A stretch of 64,000 nt of DNA from Siphonobacter sp. BAB-5405. GTDB lineage: Bacteria > Bacteroidota > Bacteroidia > Cytophagales > Spirosomataceae. Where the stretch lies: contig NZ_NJAG01000045.1 of NCBI RefSeq assembly GCF_002872335.1, forward strand, positions 248,001-312,000, given 5' to 3'. The notes under the pieces were generated by a model. It was not told where the DNA came from. It ran no database searches and worked only from the letters and a program-made list of their open reading frames with translations. This document shows, in pieces, positions 20,274-35,706 of the stretch (positions within the stretch are counted from its first letter, which is position 1; each line of letters starts with the position of its first letter). Both the position numbers and the translations under genes were made by a program.

Positions 20274-20602
20274 GTACTTGCTAAGGTTTCTAATTGAAAA
20301 AATAGAGTTGCTTTTAAGCTACAGGTATGACGTAAAGCCTCTCGCTTCCCGGATACGAATGATAAAGAACTGTTCCCATAGCGTACGGATGAAGTTGCAC
20401 CCCCCACCACTAGCTGTGCCTGGGGACTGGACAGGGGTACGGTCTGCCTATGGCAAGTCCATACGCTATTGATCGGTAAAGTGGTTTCGGGACTTCGTTC
20501 CAGAAAATCGGAAAAGATGGCTGATTGAATGGAGTACGCCAGATCAACAGGCAAACAGGCCAGTTTCGATGCCAATGAAGGAAAATCAGAAAAATTGCCA
20601 TA

Positions 20603-20635
20603 TTGTTGTCGAATATAATATATTTGTGACAACAA
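20603..20635. promoter_or_regulatory. Palindromic operator spanning promoter of VOC-EVE-MarR operon
   Basis: TTGTTGTC (20603-20610) and GACAACAA (20628-20635) are exact inverted arms around a 17-nt AT-rich spacer. The spacer holds TATATTTG (20619-20626), a perfect TAnnTTTG -7 box, only 20 bp before the VOC start. TTGT/ACAA arms are typical of MarR-family sites and a MarR gene is last in this operon, so autorepression is the likely logic. The remainder of 20274-20602 shows no gene I can support. Confidence 0.7.
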
Positions 20636-20646
20636 AAATCAATGCA

Positions 20647-21009
20647 ATGAGAAAATTAGCATTTGCTTCCCTTCAGGTAAGGGATCTGGAAATCTCCAAA
20701 ACGTTTTACATCACCCAACTAGGGTTTGAAGAAGCTGGAATTCCTAACCCTCAGGCTTGTGTATTTCGCTATAACCAGGGCGAGGCCAGCTTTGCCATCC
20801 GAACGCCCCTGAGTAATCTGGAAGGAAAAGAGCTGGGTATCGGTACTTCCCTCTGGTTCGCCATCGATGAAGCAATTGAAGACCTCCAGGCTCAGTTAAT
20901 AGCCAGGAATGTGCCCCTGCTGGGACCGATTCAGGTAACGCCTTTCGGGAAAATCCTGGTTGTCAGCGACCCCGATGGATACAACATCACCTTTCTGAAA
21001 GCAAACTAG
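20647..21009 (+). CDS. VOC-superfamily protein (glyoxalase/bleomycin-resistance fold)
   Basis: 120 aa. It has the two beta-alpha-beta-beta-beta halves of the fold: FASLQVRDLEISKTFYITQLGFEE at the start and the closing FGKILVVSDPDGYNITFLKAN. The metal and substrate residues cannot be assigned with confidence. The frame extends upstream to 20569, but ATG 20647 is the natural start because it lies just past the operator and begins the first strand. It leads an operon with an EVE-domain protein and a MarR regulator, which suggests detoxification of a small molecule sensed by MarR. Confidence 0.85.
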   Translation: MRKLAFASLQVRDLEISKTFYITQLGFEEAGIPNPQACVFRYNQGEASFAIRTPLSNLEGKELGIGTSLWFAIDEAIEDLQAQLIARNVPLLGPIQVTPFGKILVVSDPDGYNITFLKAN

Positions 21010-21019
21010 CCTGATCGGT

Positions 21020-21466
21020 ATGAACAGCGAACCCAAATACTGGATCATCGTAGCATCGAAGGATCATGTCAAAACCGGACTTGCCGGGGGCTTTGCTCAG
21101 GCCTGTCATGGTAAGGCGTCACCTTTGAAAAGAATGCGTAAGGATGATTTCCTGATTTATTATTCGGGAAAGCAGACGATGGGAAGACCCGAAGCGTGCC
21201 AGGAATTTACTGCCATCGGTAAGGTTGTGGATGACGAAGTGTATCAGGTCCGGGTATCCGAGGACTTTTGCTCCTCCAGACGTACCATTGAATTTTTGCC
21301 GGGTAGGGATGTTTCCATTTTGCCCTTACTTTCGGGATTGAATTTTATCCAAAATAAGAAAAGCTGGGGCTATCCATTCCGTTTTGGTTTTTTCGAAATT
21401 GATCGGCATGATTTCGAATGGATCGCTTCACGCATGTTAACCGAAGACGATGTCCCAACGCATTGA
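21020..21466 (+). CDS. EVE-domain protein (UPF0310/DUF55)
   Basis: 148 aa. The fold's landmarks are YWIIVASKDHVKTGLAGGFAQACHGK, LKRMRKDDFLIYYSGK, EFTAIGKV and SSRRTIEFLPGRDVSI. EVE domains are PUA-like and are known to bind modified bases in DNA or are implicated in RNA modification. The gene begins 10 bp after VOC and its last 17 bp overlap the start of the MarR gene, so all three are translated from one message. A role in nucleic-acid modification sensing is family knowledge; its link to the VOC partner is unknown. Confidence 0.88.
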   Translation: MNSEPKYWIIVASKDHVKTGLAGGFAQACHGKASPLKRMRKDDFLIYYSGKQTMGRPEACQEFTAIGKVVDDEVYQVRVSEDFCSSRRTIEFLPGRDVSILPLLSGLNFIQNKKSWGYPFRFGFFEIDRHDFEWIASRMLTEDDVPTH

Positions 21467-21914
21467 ATTTCATTTTAAAAACCCCGAAGACAGTCCGGGT
21501 TTTCTTCTGGGGCAACTGACCCTACTGTGGCAGCGGAAACAAAAGCGGGTCCTGGATCCTCTGGACCTAACGCATACGCAGTTTGCCCTGCTCTGTGCTC
21601 TGGCCTGGCTGTCGAGGGAAAGTGATCAGGTCACGCAGGTTGACATCGCCATGCAGAGCAATGCGGATCGGATGATGGTATCGAAAGTACTGCGGACGCT
21701 GGAAGAGAAGCAGTTCATTACCCGTCAGGAACATCCGACCGATACCCGGGCGAAGACAATCAAATTGACTCCGGAGGGAGAACGGGTACTGCAAAAAGCC
21801 ATTGTCAGCGTAGAAACGGCCGATTTGGAGTTCTTCAATCAGATAGGAACCGATGTACAAACGTTCAATGCAACCATGGCAGCACTGATCAAAGAAAATG
21901 CGAAAGAAGCGTAA
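21450..21914 (+). CDS. MarR-family transcriptional regulator
   Basis: 154 aa winged-helix regulator. The DNA-binding core is LTHTQFALLCALAWL ... TQVDIAMQSNADRMMVSKVLRTLEEKQFITRQEHPTDTRAKTIKLTPEGERVL, with the wing Asp-Thr-Arg that is conserved in MarR. It has no N-terminal redox Cys of the OhrR type; the only Cys is at about residue 50. It overlaps the EVE gene by 17 bp. It probably represses its own operon through the palindrome at 20603-20635. Confidence 0.9.
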   Translation: MSQRIEFHFKNPEDSPGFLLGQLTLLWQRKQKRVLDPLDLTHTQFALLCALAWLSRESDQVTQVDIAMQSNADRMMVSKVLRTLEEKQFITRQEHPTDTRAKTIKLTPEGERVLQKAIVSVETADLEFFNQIGTDVQTFNATMAALIKENAKEA

Positions 21915-23920: not shown

Positions 23921-23966
23921 TGCTTTCCTTTAGGAAAGTACTATACAAAAGAAAGCAGGTCTGGTT
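23921..23966. promoter_or_regulatory. Shared element A upstream of LLM oxidoreductase
   Basis: Contains CTTTCC-TTTA-GGAAAG (23923-23938), a perfect palindrome, then TACTATACAAAAGAAAG and AGGTCTGGTT. The same order of blocks occurs at 25712-25761 beside the HxlR gene. Presumed binding site for that HxlR regulator; the start of the controlled gene is 88 bp away. Confidence 0.6.
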
Positions 23967-24054
23967 ACATTTACGGACTCGTTACTGCCGGAAATTAATT
24001 TCTTACATCAGAAAAGTTCCATCCGGGCAGTAGGCACGCCATTAATACAAAGTC

Positions 24055-25098
24055 ATGATGAATCATCAGAATATAGCTTACTCGCTTTTAGAACTCGCTC
24101 TGGCTCCGGAAGGGACTACCATCAAAGAGACGCTGAACAACTCCCTGGCTCTGGCTCAGGAAGCGGAGGCCTTAAACTTTACCCGATACTGGTTTGCCGA
24201 ACACCATAATGCAGAGCATATTGGCAGTAATGCTCCTTCCATCCTCATCGGTTATGTAGCCGAAAACACCCGTACGCTTCGGGTCGGGTCGGGAGGGATC
24301 ATGCTTCCTAATCATTCACCCCTGATTGTCGCCGAACAGTTTGGTACCCTGGCTCAGTTGTATCCCAACCGCATTGACCTGGGTCTGGGAAGAGCCCCGG
24401 GGACGGATGGTCAGACGGCTCATGCCATTCGATCTGATTTCATGGAAGCGGCCCAGTCCTTTCCGCAGGAGGTAAGTAAAATCCAAACGTACTTTTCCAG
24501 TGAAAACCAGGGGTCAAAAGTACGAGCTCCCATCGCCGAGGGCACCGAAGTTCCGCTGTATATCCTGGGTTCGAGTACCGATAGTGCTCACCTGGCCGCC
24601 AAAAAAGGACTGCCTTATGCGTTTGCCAGCCATTTTGCTTCTACGCATTTATTGAACGCCCTGGCTATCTACCGCCGGGAATTCCAGCCTTCTCCGTTTC
24701 TGCGTGAGCCGTACACAATAGCTGGCGTCAACGTACTGATTGCTGATACCGATGAAGAAGCAGAAAAACTATACACGACTCTTATCCGCATGTTTCTGGG
24801 GGTATTGACGGGGGCAAAAGATGCATTGCAGCCCCCGACTGAAATGACGGACGAATTCCGGCAAATTCTGAAACATCCTACCCTGAATCAAATGCTGAAA
24901 TATTCGTTTGTGGGTAGTAAGGCAACCGTAAAAAGGCAAATTGAGGCATTTCTAACCGAAACGCAGGTTAATGAACTGATTGCTGTATCCACTACCTATG
25001 ATTTTGAAGACCGGATAAAGTCGATTCGGTTGTTTGCAGAGGTAATGCAGGAGATCAATGCCAGCAAAACGGTAGCAAGTAATGCATTGGTCTCGTAA
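24055..25098 (+). CDS. LLM-class (luciferase-like) flavin oxidoreductase
   Basis: 347 aa TIM-barrel flavin-dependent monooxygenase-like protein. Landmarks: EAEALNFTRYWFAEHHN near residues 36-52, RVGSGGIMLPNHSPLIVAEQFGTLAQLYPNRIDLGLGRAPGTD (about residues 76-120), ILGSSTDSAHLAAKKGLPYAFASHF and the C-terminal FVGSKATVKRQIEAFL. This order is that of the small YhbW-like group, whose natural substrates are largely unknown. ATG at 24055 and 24058 are both possible. It ends at a clear intrinsic terminator and is flanked upstream by a DNA element shared with the HxlR gene, so HxlR control is likely. Confidence 0.9.
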   Translation: MMNHQNIAYSLLELALAPEGTTIKETLNNSLALAQEAEALNFTRYWFAEHHNAEHIGSNAPSILIGYVAENTRTLRVGSGGIMLPNHSPLIVAEQFGTLAQLYPNRIDLGLGRAPGTDGQTAHAIRSDFMEAAQSFPQEVSKIQTYFSSENQGSKVRAPIAEGTEVPLYILGSSTDSAHLAAKKGLPYAFASHFASTHLLNALAIYRREFQPSPFLREPYTIAGVNVLIADTDEEAEKLYTTLIRMFLGVLTGAKDALQPPTEMTDEFRQILKHPTLNQMLKYSFVGSKATVKRQIEAFLTETQVNELIAVSTTYDFEDRIKSIRLFAEVMQEINASKTVASNALVS

Positions 25099-25185
25099 AT
25101 CAGGAGTACGGGTTGTTGATAATCAAGCGGGGAAGTCTTCAAAATCAGGGTAGTTTGATCTGATTAGTCCTGACAAGAACCATTG

Positions 25186-25216
25186 AAACGGGCGTAAGAA
25201 ATCTACGCCCGTTTTT
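25186..25216 (+). terminator. Intrinsic terminator after LLM oxidoreductase
   Basis: An 11-bp perfect stem (25186-25196 with 25204-25214) has a 7-nt loop and is followed by T-rich DNA. It is 88 bp past the stop of the LLM gene. Confidence 0.85.
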
Positions 25217-25338
25217 CTTTCTTCAACCCATCGTGTGAATGATACGGGTGCCTGCCCAGGTAGTGATGGATCTTAACCGGAACTGCCCCAACCCCGCTAG
25301 CACGAGCCTTACCCACTAAAAAGCCGGGCTACTGTTCT

Positions 25339-25692
25339 TCAAACATCTACCTGCATGATCTTCTTTCGATGATTAAGCCCCCAGTCTTTCAACGCGTAAA
25401 TAATGGGCGTTAGCGTATCAGCATAGGCGTCGGCCTGGTAGGAAATCTTCACGGGATACCCCTCAATAATGATTCGCTTGATGAGTTTGTGCTCTTCCAA
25501 CTCCTTCAATTCCTTGGCCAACACCTTGGGCGTGATGCCCGGAATACTATTCTGAATATCGGTAAACCGCTCATTACCAACGGTAATCGAAATAATGATG
25601 GGCAGTTTCCACTTGCCATTAATTACATCCAGCGTATCCCGAACGGGTTTGATGGTTTCCAGACAATTGCAATAGCCCTTTTTAGTTTCCAT
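25339..25692 (-). CDS. HxlR-family transcriptional regulator
   Basis: 117 aa winged helix. HxlR signature: CxxxxxxLDVINGKWKLPII, ERFTDIQNSIPGITPKVLAKELKELEEHKLIKR, and ADAYADTLTPIIYALKDWG. It has three Cys/Asn-rich N-terminal positions (CNCLET), so a thiol sensor role is possible but unproven. It converges with the LLM gene and shares a DNA element with it, indicating that it controls both itself and LLM. Confidence 0.92.
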   Translation of the reverse strand: METKKGYCNCLETIKPVRDTLDVINGKWKLPIIISITVGNERFTDIQNSIPGITPKVLAKELKELEEHKLIKRIIIEGYPVKISYQADAYADTLTPIIYALKDWGLNHRKKIMQVDV

Positions 25693-25711
25693 GTACTGCT
25701 TGTAAATATGT

Positions 25712-25761
25712 TGCTTTCTTAAAGGAAAGTGCTATACAAAGGAAAGTATAGGGGTCTGGTT
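25712..25761. promoter_or_regulatory. Shared element B beside HxlR
   Basis: Carries CTTTCT-TAAA-GGAAAG (25714-25729), then TGCTATACAAAGGAAAG and GGTCTGGTT, closely matching element A at 23921-23966 in the same orientation. It starts 20 bp upstream of the HxlR start and so is suited to autoregulation. Confidence 0.6.
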
Positions 25762-25797
25762 TTGCAAAACAATTCATCTCCATCCGTAAGGAAATAG

Positions 25798-26393
25798 GAA
25801 TCATACGATCCGGTACTGTTGGTCGCACATGGGTGGGCATTCGCAGTTGAATGTCAGCGAGCACTTCCGGTACGTTTGCAACGCTTTGCAGGCGTCGGAA
25901 AAGAGTCTTCGGTGCTGGTTATCTGGCAAATGGCTTCCGAAAAAACACCAGTCATTTTGAGGTACAGCGGAATCAGGACGGAGAACATTGGAATGTATTA
26001 GGGACGCAGAAAGCTCGTGGCGAAAGCCAGTCATTGATTAACTACCGCTTTGTGGACGAGTATCCGTTACGCGGCATTAATTATTACCGACTGAAAATGA
26101 TGGACAAGGATGACACTTTTACGTATACGCGTGCTCAAAGCGTGGAGATGGCCCGGGGAACGGCAATTGTCTATCCCAATCCTGTAGCAGAAACGCTTTA
26201 TTTGAAAAACGTAGAGGCAACTCTGGTGCGGGAAGTCGTACTACAGGACCTGCGTGGCGTAGTGTTCTTCCGGTCGTCTGATTGCCCAGCCAGGGGTATA
26301 AACGTTCGGAAAGTGACTAAAGGCACCTATCTACTCACGGTTATCGAGCACAGTGGGTTTGCCAGGAGCTATAAGGTCATTATTGGTCACTAA
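25798..26393 (+). pseudogene. T9SS C-terminal sorting-domain remnant, frameshifted
   Basis: C-terminal piece of a larger secreted protein. The first frame (from about 25798) reads ALPVRLQRFAGVGKESSVLVIWQMASEK; after a run of six A (25940-25945) the next frame continues NTSHFEVQRNQDGEHW. Adding one A rejoins the well-known Bacteroidota pattern LPVTL..F.G....WQTASEKNTSHFEVQRS. The second part has YRFVDEYPLRGINYYRLKMMDKD and ends with a T9SS-type domain (VYPNPVAETLYL, VTKGTYLLTV). No catalytic domain or signal peptide remains upstream; the frame is closed by a stop at 25795-25797. The indel could be a sequence error, but the truncation is real. Confidence 0.8.
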
Positions 26394-35274: not shown

Positions 35275-35350
35275 CAAAGCTAGAGCGGCTTGATTTATTT
35301 TAGTAACTTTGTAACTAAAAGTAACAGTAACCCCGAAGTAACTAAGTAAC
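35275..35350. promoter_or_regulatory. Divergent promoters with six GTAAC repeats
   Basis: On the - strand 35275-35282 reads TAGCTTTG, a -7 box for the SDR. On the + strand 35304-35311 reads TAACTTTG, a -7 box for the HxlR gene. GTAAC occurs six times, all in the same direction, at 35303, 35311, 35321, 35327, 35338 and 35346, reaching to 2 bp before the HxlR ATG. The repeats cover both promoters and are presumably the operator. Confidence 0.7.
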
Positions 35351-35352
35351 CT

Positions 35353-35706
35353 ATGACGTGCGAACCCCGTAAAAGCGACGAACACAAAAAGGAGATGCGG
35401 GCGGTCCAGGACTGCATGCACGTACTCAATGGAAAGTGGAAAATTGCCATTATTTCATCCATTTGCTATTACAGCAAAAGGAGGTTTTCGGACATTCTAA
35501 ACGACGTGGACGGGATCTCGAACAAAATGCTGAGTAAAGAACTCAAAGAGCTGGAAATCAATCAGCTCGTCAAGCGAACGGTGCTGGATACCCAGCCGGT
35601 AACCGTCCAGTATGAACTGACCGATCACGGCTGGTCGCTGAGGACCATTATTGAGAACCTGACTACCTGGGGCGTCGAGCACCGGAAGAAGATTTTTGAA
35701 AGCTAG
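35353..35706 (+). CDS. HxlR-family transcriptional regulator
   Basis: 117 aa. Signature HxlR winged helix: QDCMHVLNGKWKIAIISSI, RRFSDILNDVDGISNKMLSKELKELEINQLVKR, and ELTDHGWSLRTIIENLTTWG. One Cys sits in the conserved N-terminal DCMHVL position, and another (Cys3) at the start. It is transcribed away from the SDR gene, overlapping the repeat array at 35301-35350. It is a distant paralogue of the HxlR at 25339, not a close copy. Confidence 0.92.
   Translation: MTCEPRKSDEHKKEMRAVQDCMHVLNGKWKIAIISSICYYSKRRFSDILNDVDGISNKMLSKELKELEINQLVKRTVLDTQPVTVQYELTDHGWSLRTIIENLTTWGVEHRKKIFES

Follow-up and report, generated by a model that had tools for sequence, protein, structure and literature searches.

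The window (the whole stretch of 64,000 nucleotides from Siphonobacter sp. BAB-5405 that was analysed) carries two convergent genes of interest. One of them (24055-25098, plus strand) encodes a luciferase-like monooxygenase (LLM) of the MsnO8 family, with a score of 390 bits against TIGR03558, well above the curated cut-off of 166.95; its closest solved structure is 4us5. The other (25339-25692, minus strand) encodes a winged-helix regulator of 117 amino acids that belongs to the HxlR/DUF24 family (80 bits against Pfam PF01638, gathering cut-off 20.8). A terminator hairpin with a 12-bp stem and a T-rich tail (25185-25215, no strand assigned) lies between the two. The conserved, putative redox cysteine near the N-terminus of the HxlR protein is Cys10, which is invariant in 78/78 orthologs, as is a large part of the HTH (residues P55, K56, L62, L65 and E66); Cys8 is present in just 35% of the orthologs. 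Genes for a glyoxalase-fold protein and a MarR-family protein (20569-21914) are located near LLM and HxlR, and are also found in the sister species G001 (L041:6929-7787), where they directly adjoin HxlR. Another open reading frame (25851-26393) encodes a C-terminal Por secretion sorting domain with no obvious N-terminal part, and may be a fragment.

Two copies of one element

Upstream of LLM lies a predicted operator, site A (core 23921-23956, minus strand, GCTTTCTTTTGTATAGTACTTTCCTAAAGGAAAGCA on that strand), and a second predicted operator, site B (core 25712-25747, minus strand, ACTTTCCTTTGTATAGCACTTTCCTTTAAGAAAGCA in HxlR orientation), is located in the HxlR promoter. The sequence blocks that the original prediction had listed for both places are all present, in the same order and orientation, and its gene spacings are right as well: 19-20 nt separate site B from the HxlR ATG, and 88 nt separate site A from the LLM ATG. 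With respect to the two genes, the copies face opposite ways: B reads with HxlR and A against LLM. Local alignment of A and B gives TGCTTTCCTTTAGGAAAGTACTATACAAAAGAAAGCA(----)GGTCTGGTT versus TGCTTTCTTAAAGGAAAGTGCTATACAAAGGAAAGTATAGGGGTCTGGTT, with a shared core of 37 positions aligned without gaps. The best ungapped 35-mer is identical at 30/35 positions, versus at most 25/35 among 3000 random pairs of same-size stretches from the window. The DNA flanking the two copies is unrelated. One of the listed blocks, GGTCTGGTT, was dropped as a part of the element: it is shifted by 4 nt between A and B and occurs at neither site in G001, and therefore falls outside the conserved element.

With up to 3 mismatches allowed, the 35-mer matches the 6.49 Mb genome at A and B and nowhere else, and its reversed control pattern does not match at all. 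A whole-genome profile search, in which the profile itself included A and B, gave them scores of 46 and 39 bits, against 14 bits for the candidate ranked third.

Conservation in Bacteroidota and linkage to gene order

The hits of a GTDB genome scan, 67-83% identical HxlR proteins from Cytophagia, Sphingobacteria, Chitinophagia and Flavobacteria, make up a set of 77 HxlR loci together with the G001 ortholog; over the whole set, identity is 67-89%. In 55 of the 77 loci, a 36-bp element is found upstream of HxlR with no more than 6 mismatches, counted against the consensus ACTTTCCTTTGTATAGTACTTTCCCAAAGGAAAGTG, whereas shuffled sequences have at least 16. The element consensus in HxlR orientation is RCTTTCCTTTGTATAGTNCTTTCCYAAAGGAAAGTG, and many of its columns are invariant in 55/55 sites. 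Its distance from the HxlR start is 10-34 nt in these loci, with one case farther away. A leave-genus-out weight matrix, built from 54 ortholog sites with A, B and the sister species left out, scores A at 57.4 bits and B at 44.5 bits in the window; the next-best window position scores -15 and the best among 30 shuffled windows -4.7. Strong copies are found 1-2 times per genome among the genomes of 32 species, and the reversed control is found 0 times. G001 keeps both genes and both sites. At its site A, 35/35 operator bases are the same, and the flanks have diverged except for a downstream TACATTTAC block, which may be the LLM -7 box.

LLM and the HxlR ortholog are neighbours in about 30 of the 77 loci, and the position of the element follows the transcription unit. 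The two genes stand in tandem, with HxlR downstream, in 19/77 loci. None of these 19 has a site before HxlR, where 17-21 mismatches are counted, no better than random, and in 16 of them a site well above the shuffled level precedes LLM or heads the operon. In L046, L047, L054, L055, L058 and L065, the run begins with an NtaA-type LLM gene, followed by the MsnO8-type gene and HxlR, and the site is at its head. No above-threshold site is present in the tandem loci L075, L077 and L113; L113 ends just upstream, and the other two show diverged look-alikes alone. Close divergent LLM/HxlR pairs (L048, L093, L096, L097, L109, L117) carry 1-2 sites between the genes. Finally, the same-genus genomes G003 and G005 have LLM orthologs (87% and 83% identical) without an HxlR of this clade, and a search of their LLM loci found no site. 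The tandem and divergent placement, the absence in G003 and G005 and the presence of only one or two copies in a genome show that the element is linked both to HxlR of this clade and to LLM. The regulon of HxlR plus LLM that had been proposed from the window is supported by the same data: the element stands before HxlR orthologs across the phylum, moves with the transcription unit, is missing at LLM without the regulator and has no further genomic copies.

Weaker copies of the operator, with 6 mismatches each, were noted upstream of a nitroreductase gene (L103:825-860) and upstream of an NtaA-type LLM gene (L080:2994-3029). In those species, the two genes are likely further targets.

Anatomy of the predicted operator and probable promoter overlap

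Read in the direction of HxlR, the element is made up of two imperfect palindromes that directly adjoin each other, first ACTTTCC-TTT-GTATAGT and then NCTTTCC-YAAA-GGAAAGT. The original prediction of a palindromic footprint is supported in this respect, but the single palindrome has to be replaced by a tandem of two. The second palindrome has the inverted-repeat spacing of an HxlR-type site when compared with the HxlR-DNA crystal oligo of B. subtilis, CAGTATCCTCGAGGATACTG, in which the half-sites are CAGTATCC-TCGA-GGATACTG (PMC7835342). The geometry is 7-4-7 in both: AGTATCC-TCGA-GGATACT in B. subtilis and ACTTTCC-YAAA-GGAAAGT here.

A scan for sigma-70 type promoters found nothing at A or B, as expected for Bacteroidota, in which promoters consist of a -33 element and a -7 box, TAnnTTTG (PMC6847099). 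The first palindrome of site B contains TTCCTTTG (25737-25744, minus strand), which resembles TAnnTTTG, with T at base 2 in place of A, and is the probable -7 box of the HxlR promoter. Its TTTG is found in 55/55 orthologous sites. The probable -33 element is a TTG in the context TTTTGCAAAA (25765-25767, minus strand), conserved in G001. Site B thus reads TTG-N20-TTCCTTTG, the TTG being exactly 20 nt upstream; among the orthologs, the upstream distance of TTG from operator base 1 is exactly 20 nt in 35/55 and 21 nt in 9/55 (44/55 in total). This spacing, together with the position of TTCCTTTG in the first palindrome, suggests that the -7 box and the expected start both lie within operator B. 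The overlap appears well supported and would give the site the geometry of a repressor operator. In several operon-head sites of reverse orientation, TTTG is changed to AAAA and the half-sites are kept, which suggests that TTTG is a part of the promoter and the remaining element a protein contact.

At site A, the candidate LLM -7 box, TACATTTA (23966-23973, plus strand), lies just downstream of the operator; it has one mismatch to TAnnTTTG and is kept in G001. No clear -33 element was found at A. By its position, A may overlap the LLM promoter. The proposal of a regulator footprint combined with a promoter has comparative support as to the footprint, and the promoter part appears well supported at B and possible by position at A. 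At A, the element faces away from LLM, which is also the arrangement in the divergent pairs, and it directly precedes the candidate -7 box, so that it may have descended from a shared divergent operator. An HxlR pseudogene remnant, which could explain this orientation, was sought to the left of A and none was found.

Other explanations of the two sites were considered. Conservation at B might reflect the HxlR promoter alone, with A being an LLM promoter of the same type and no regulator bound. The block does hold a TTTG box, preceded by TTG at a distance of 20-21 nt, yet 36 bp and two palindromes far exceed what the -33 and -7 elements of Bacteroidota require, and the element is confined to one or two places in a genome instead of being general at promoters. 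Full conservation of A (35/35) despite its orientation against LLM, and the loss of the TTTG core from several operon-head sites that retain the half-sites, also argue against a promoter alone, which we consider very improbable. Two near-identical copies 1.8 kb apart could also be a locally duplicated dispersed repeat or the remnant of a mobile element. A large number of copies in the genome had been named as the mark of such a repeat; the genome scan rejects this candidate, as there are two copies alone, their flanks are unrelated and the same type of element occurs at orthologous promoters across the phylum. It has hardly any probability left.

Another regulator could bind A and B, either one of the several HxlR paralogs in this genome or the MarR protein encoded at 21450-21914. 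This is unlikely, as the element tracks this HxlR clade through changes of gene order in many genera and the HxlR paralogs with inspected upstream regions mostly carry GTTACC or CTATAC half-sites. Moreover, the MarR gene persists near LLM in G003, where the site is missing.

Proposed regulation and related systems

The above observations are consistent with A and B being operators of the HxlR protein encoded at 25339-25692, its presumed binder, with two dimers per operator, autorepression at B, co-control of LLM and a signal received by Cys10. We regard this reading, built on comparative sequence data, as very probable. Two HxlR dimers would most likely bind side by side on the composite operator. 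At B, this would mask the -7 box and the start in the promoter of HxlR itself, resulting in negative autoregulation. At A, the dimers would occupy the DNA immediately before the LLM promoter, so that LLM, the second predicted target, would be controlled in step with HxlR. The invariant Cys10 may receive a signal, probably electrophilic or oxidative, that alters DNA binding. Because Cys10 is invariant in 78/78 orthologs while Cys8 is not, sensing is likely to rely on one Cys, as it does in YodB and QsrR.

B. subtilis HxlR, which acts at a formaldehyde-responsive site (PDB 7bzg, PMC7835342), is an HxlR/DUF24 dimer with an N-terminal Cys, as here. It is an activator with a Cys11-Lys13 pair, whereas the protein studied here has C10-L11-E12, with no Lys two residues on; residue 12 is D or N in most orthologs and E in Siphonobacter HxlR. 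Because B. subtilis HxlR is an activator, control at A could be either repression or activation. Unlike the B. subtilis site, the site here overlaps the regulator's own promoter. The repressors YodB and QsrR have the MarR/DUF24 fold and a single conserved N-terminal Cys, again as here. In these proteins, the Cys senses quinones or electrophiles and a palindromic operator controls oxidoreductases (azoR1 for YodB). The YodB site is TACT-N7-AGTA, in contrast to the 36-bp double palindrome, and flavin monooxygenases of the LLM type are the predicted targets in the present case.

The system is a well-supported new example of an already known type. The open literature searched contained no link between an MsnO8-type LLM and an HxlR operator, and no HxlR operator from Bacteroidota, a characterised one for this clade included. 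A broader possibility, to which we give about an even chance, is a module present throughout Bacteroidota, in which a single HxlR clade, with its lone invariant Cys, controls a movable group of flavin-monooxygenase genes (MsnO8-type and NtaA-type LLM, an F420/NADP-reductase-like gene and a nitroreductase). It would do so through a near-unchanging 36-bp operator for two cooperating dimers that is rebuilt or moved as gene order changes. HxlR regulators are very common in Bacteroidota, and a hint in raw sequence has here led to an exact, phylum-wide predicted operator and a small regulon that can be tested. The operator and the LLM gene offer a direct route to the inducer of MsnO8-type monooxygenases in these bacteria.

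Other HxlR paralogs in the relatives have the same tandem architecture with different half-sites, GTTACC or CTATAC. The operator logic appears to be general for the HxlR family in Bacteroidota, with letters that are specific to each clade. In the window, a second HxlR-family gene (35353-35706, plus strand) is 44% identical to the first, and the region upstream of it (35286-35350) contains arrays of GTAAC/AGTAAC repeats, which are predicted to form a distinct operator built along similar lines. The paralog groups L033, L034 and L039 versus L035, L037 and L038 differ in having GTTACC or CTATAC half-sites. The residues near position 55 (P, S, T or D) of the paralogs seem to vary with the half-site, which hints at a readable specificity code.
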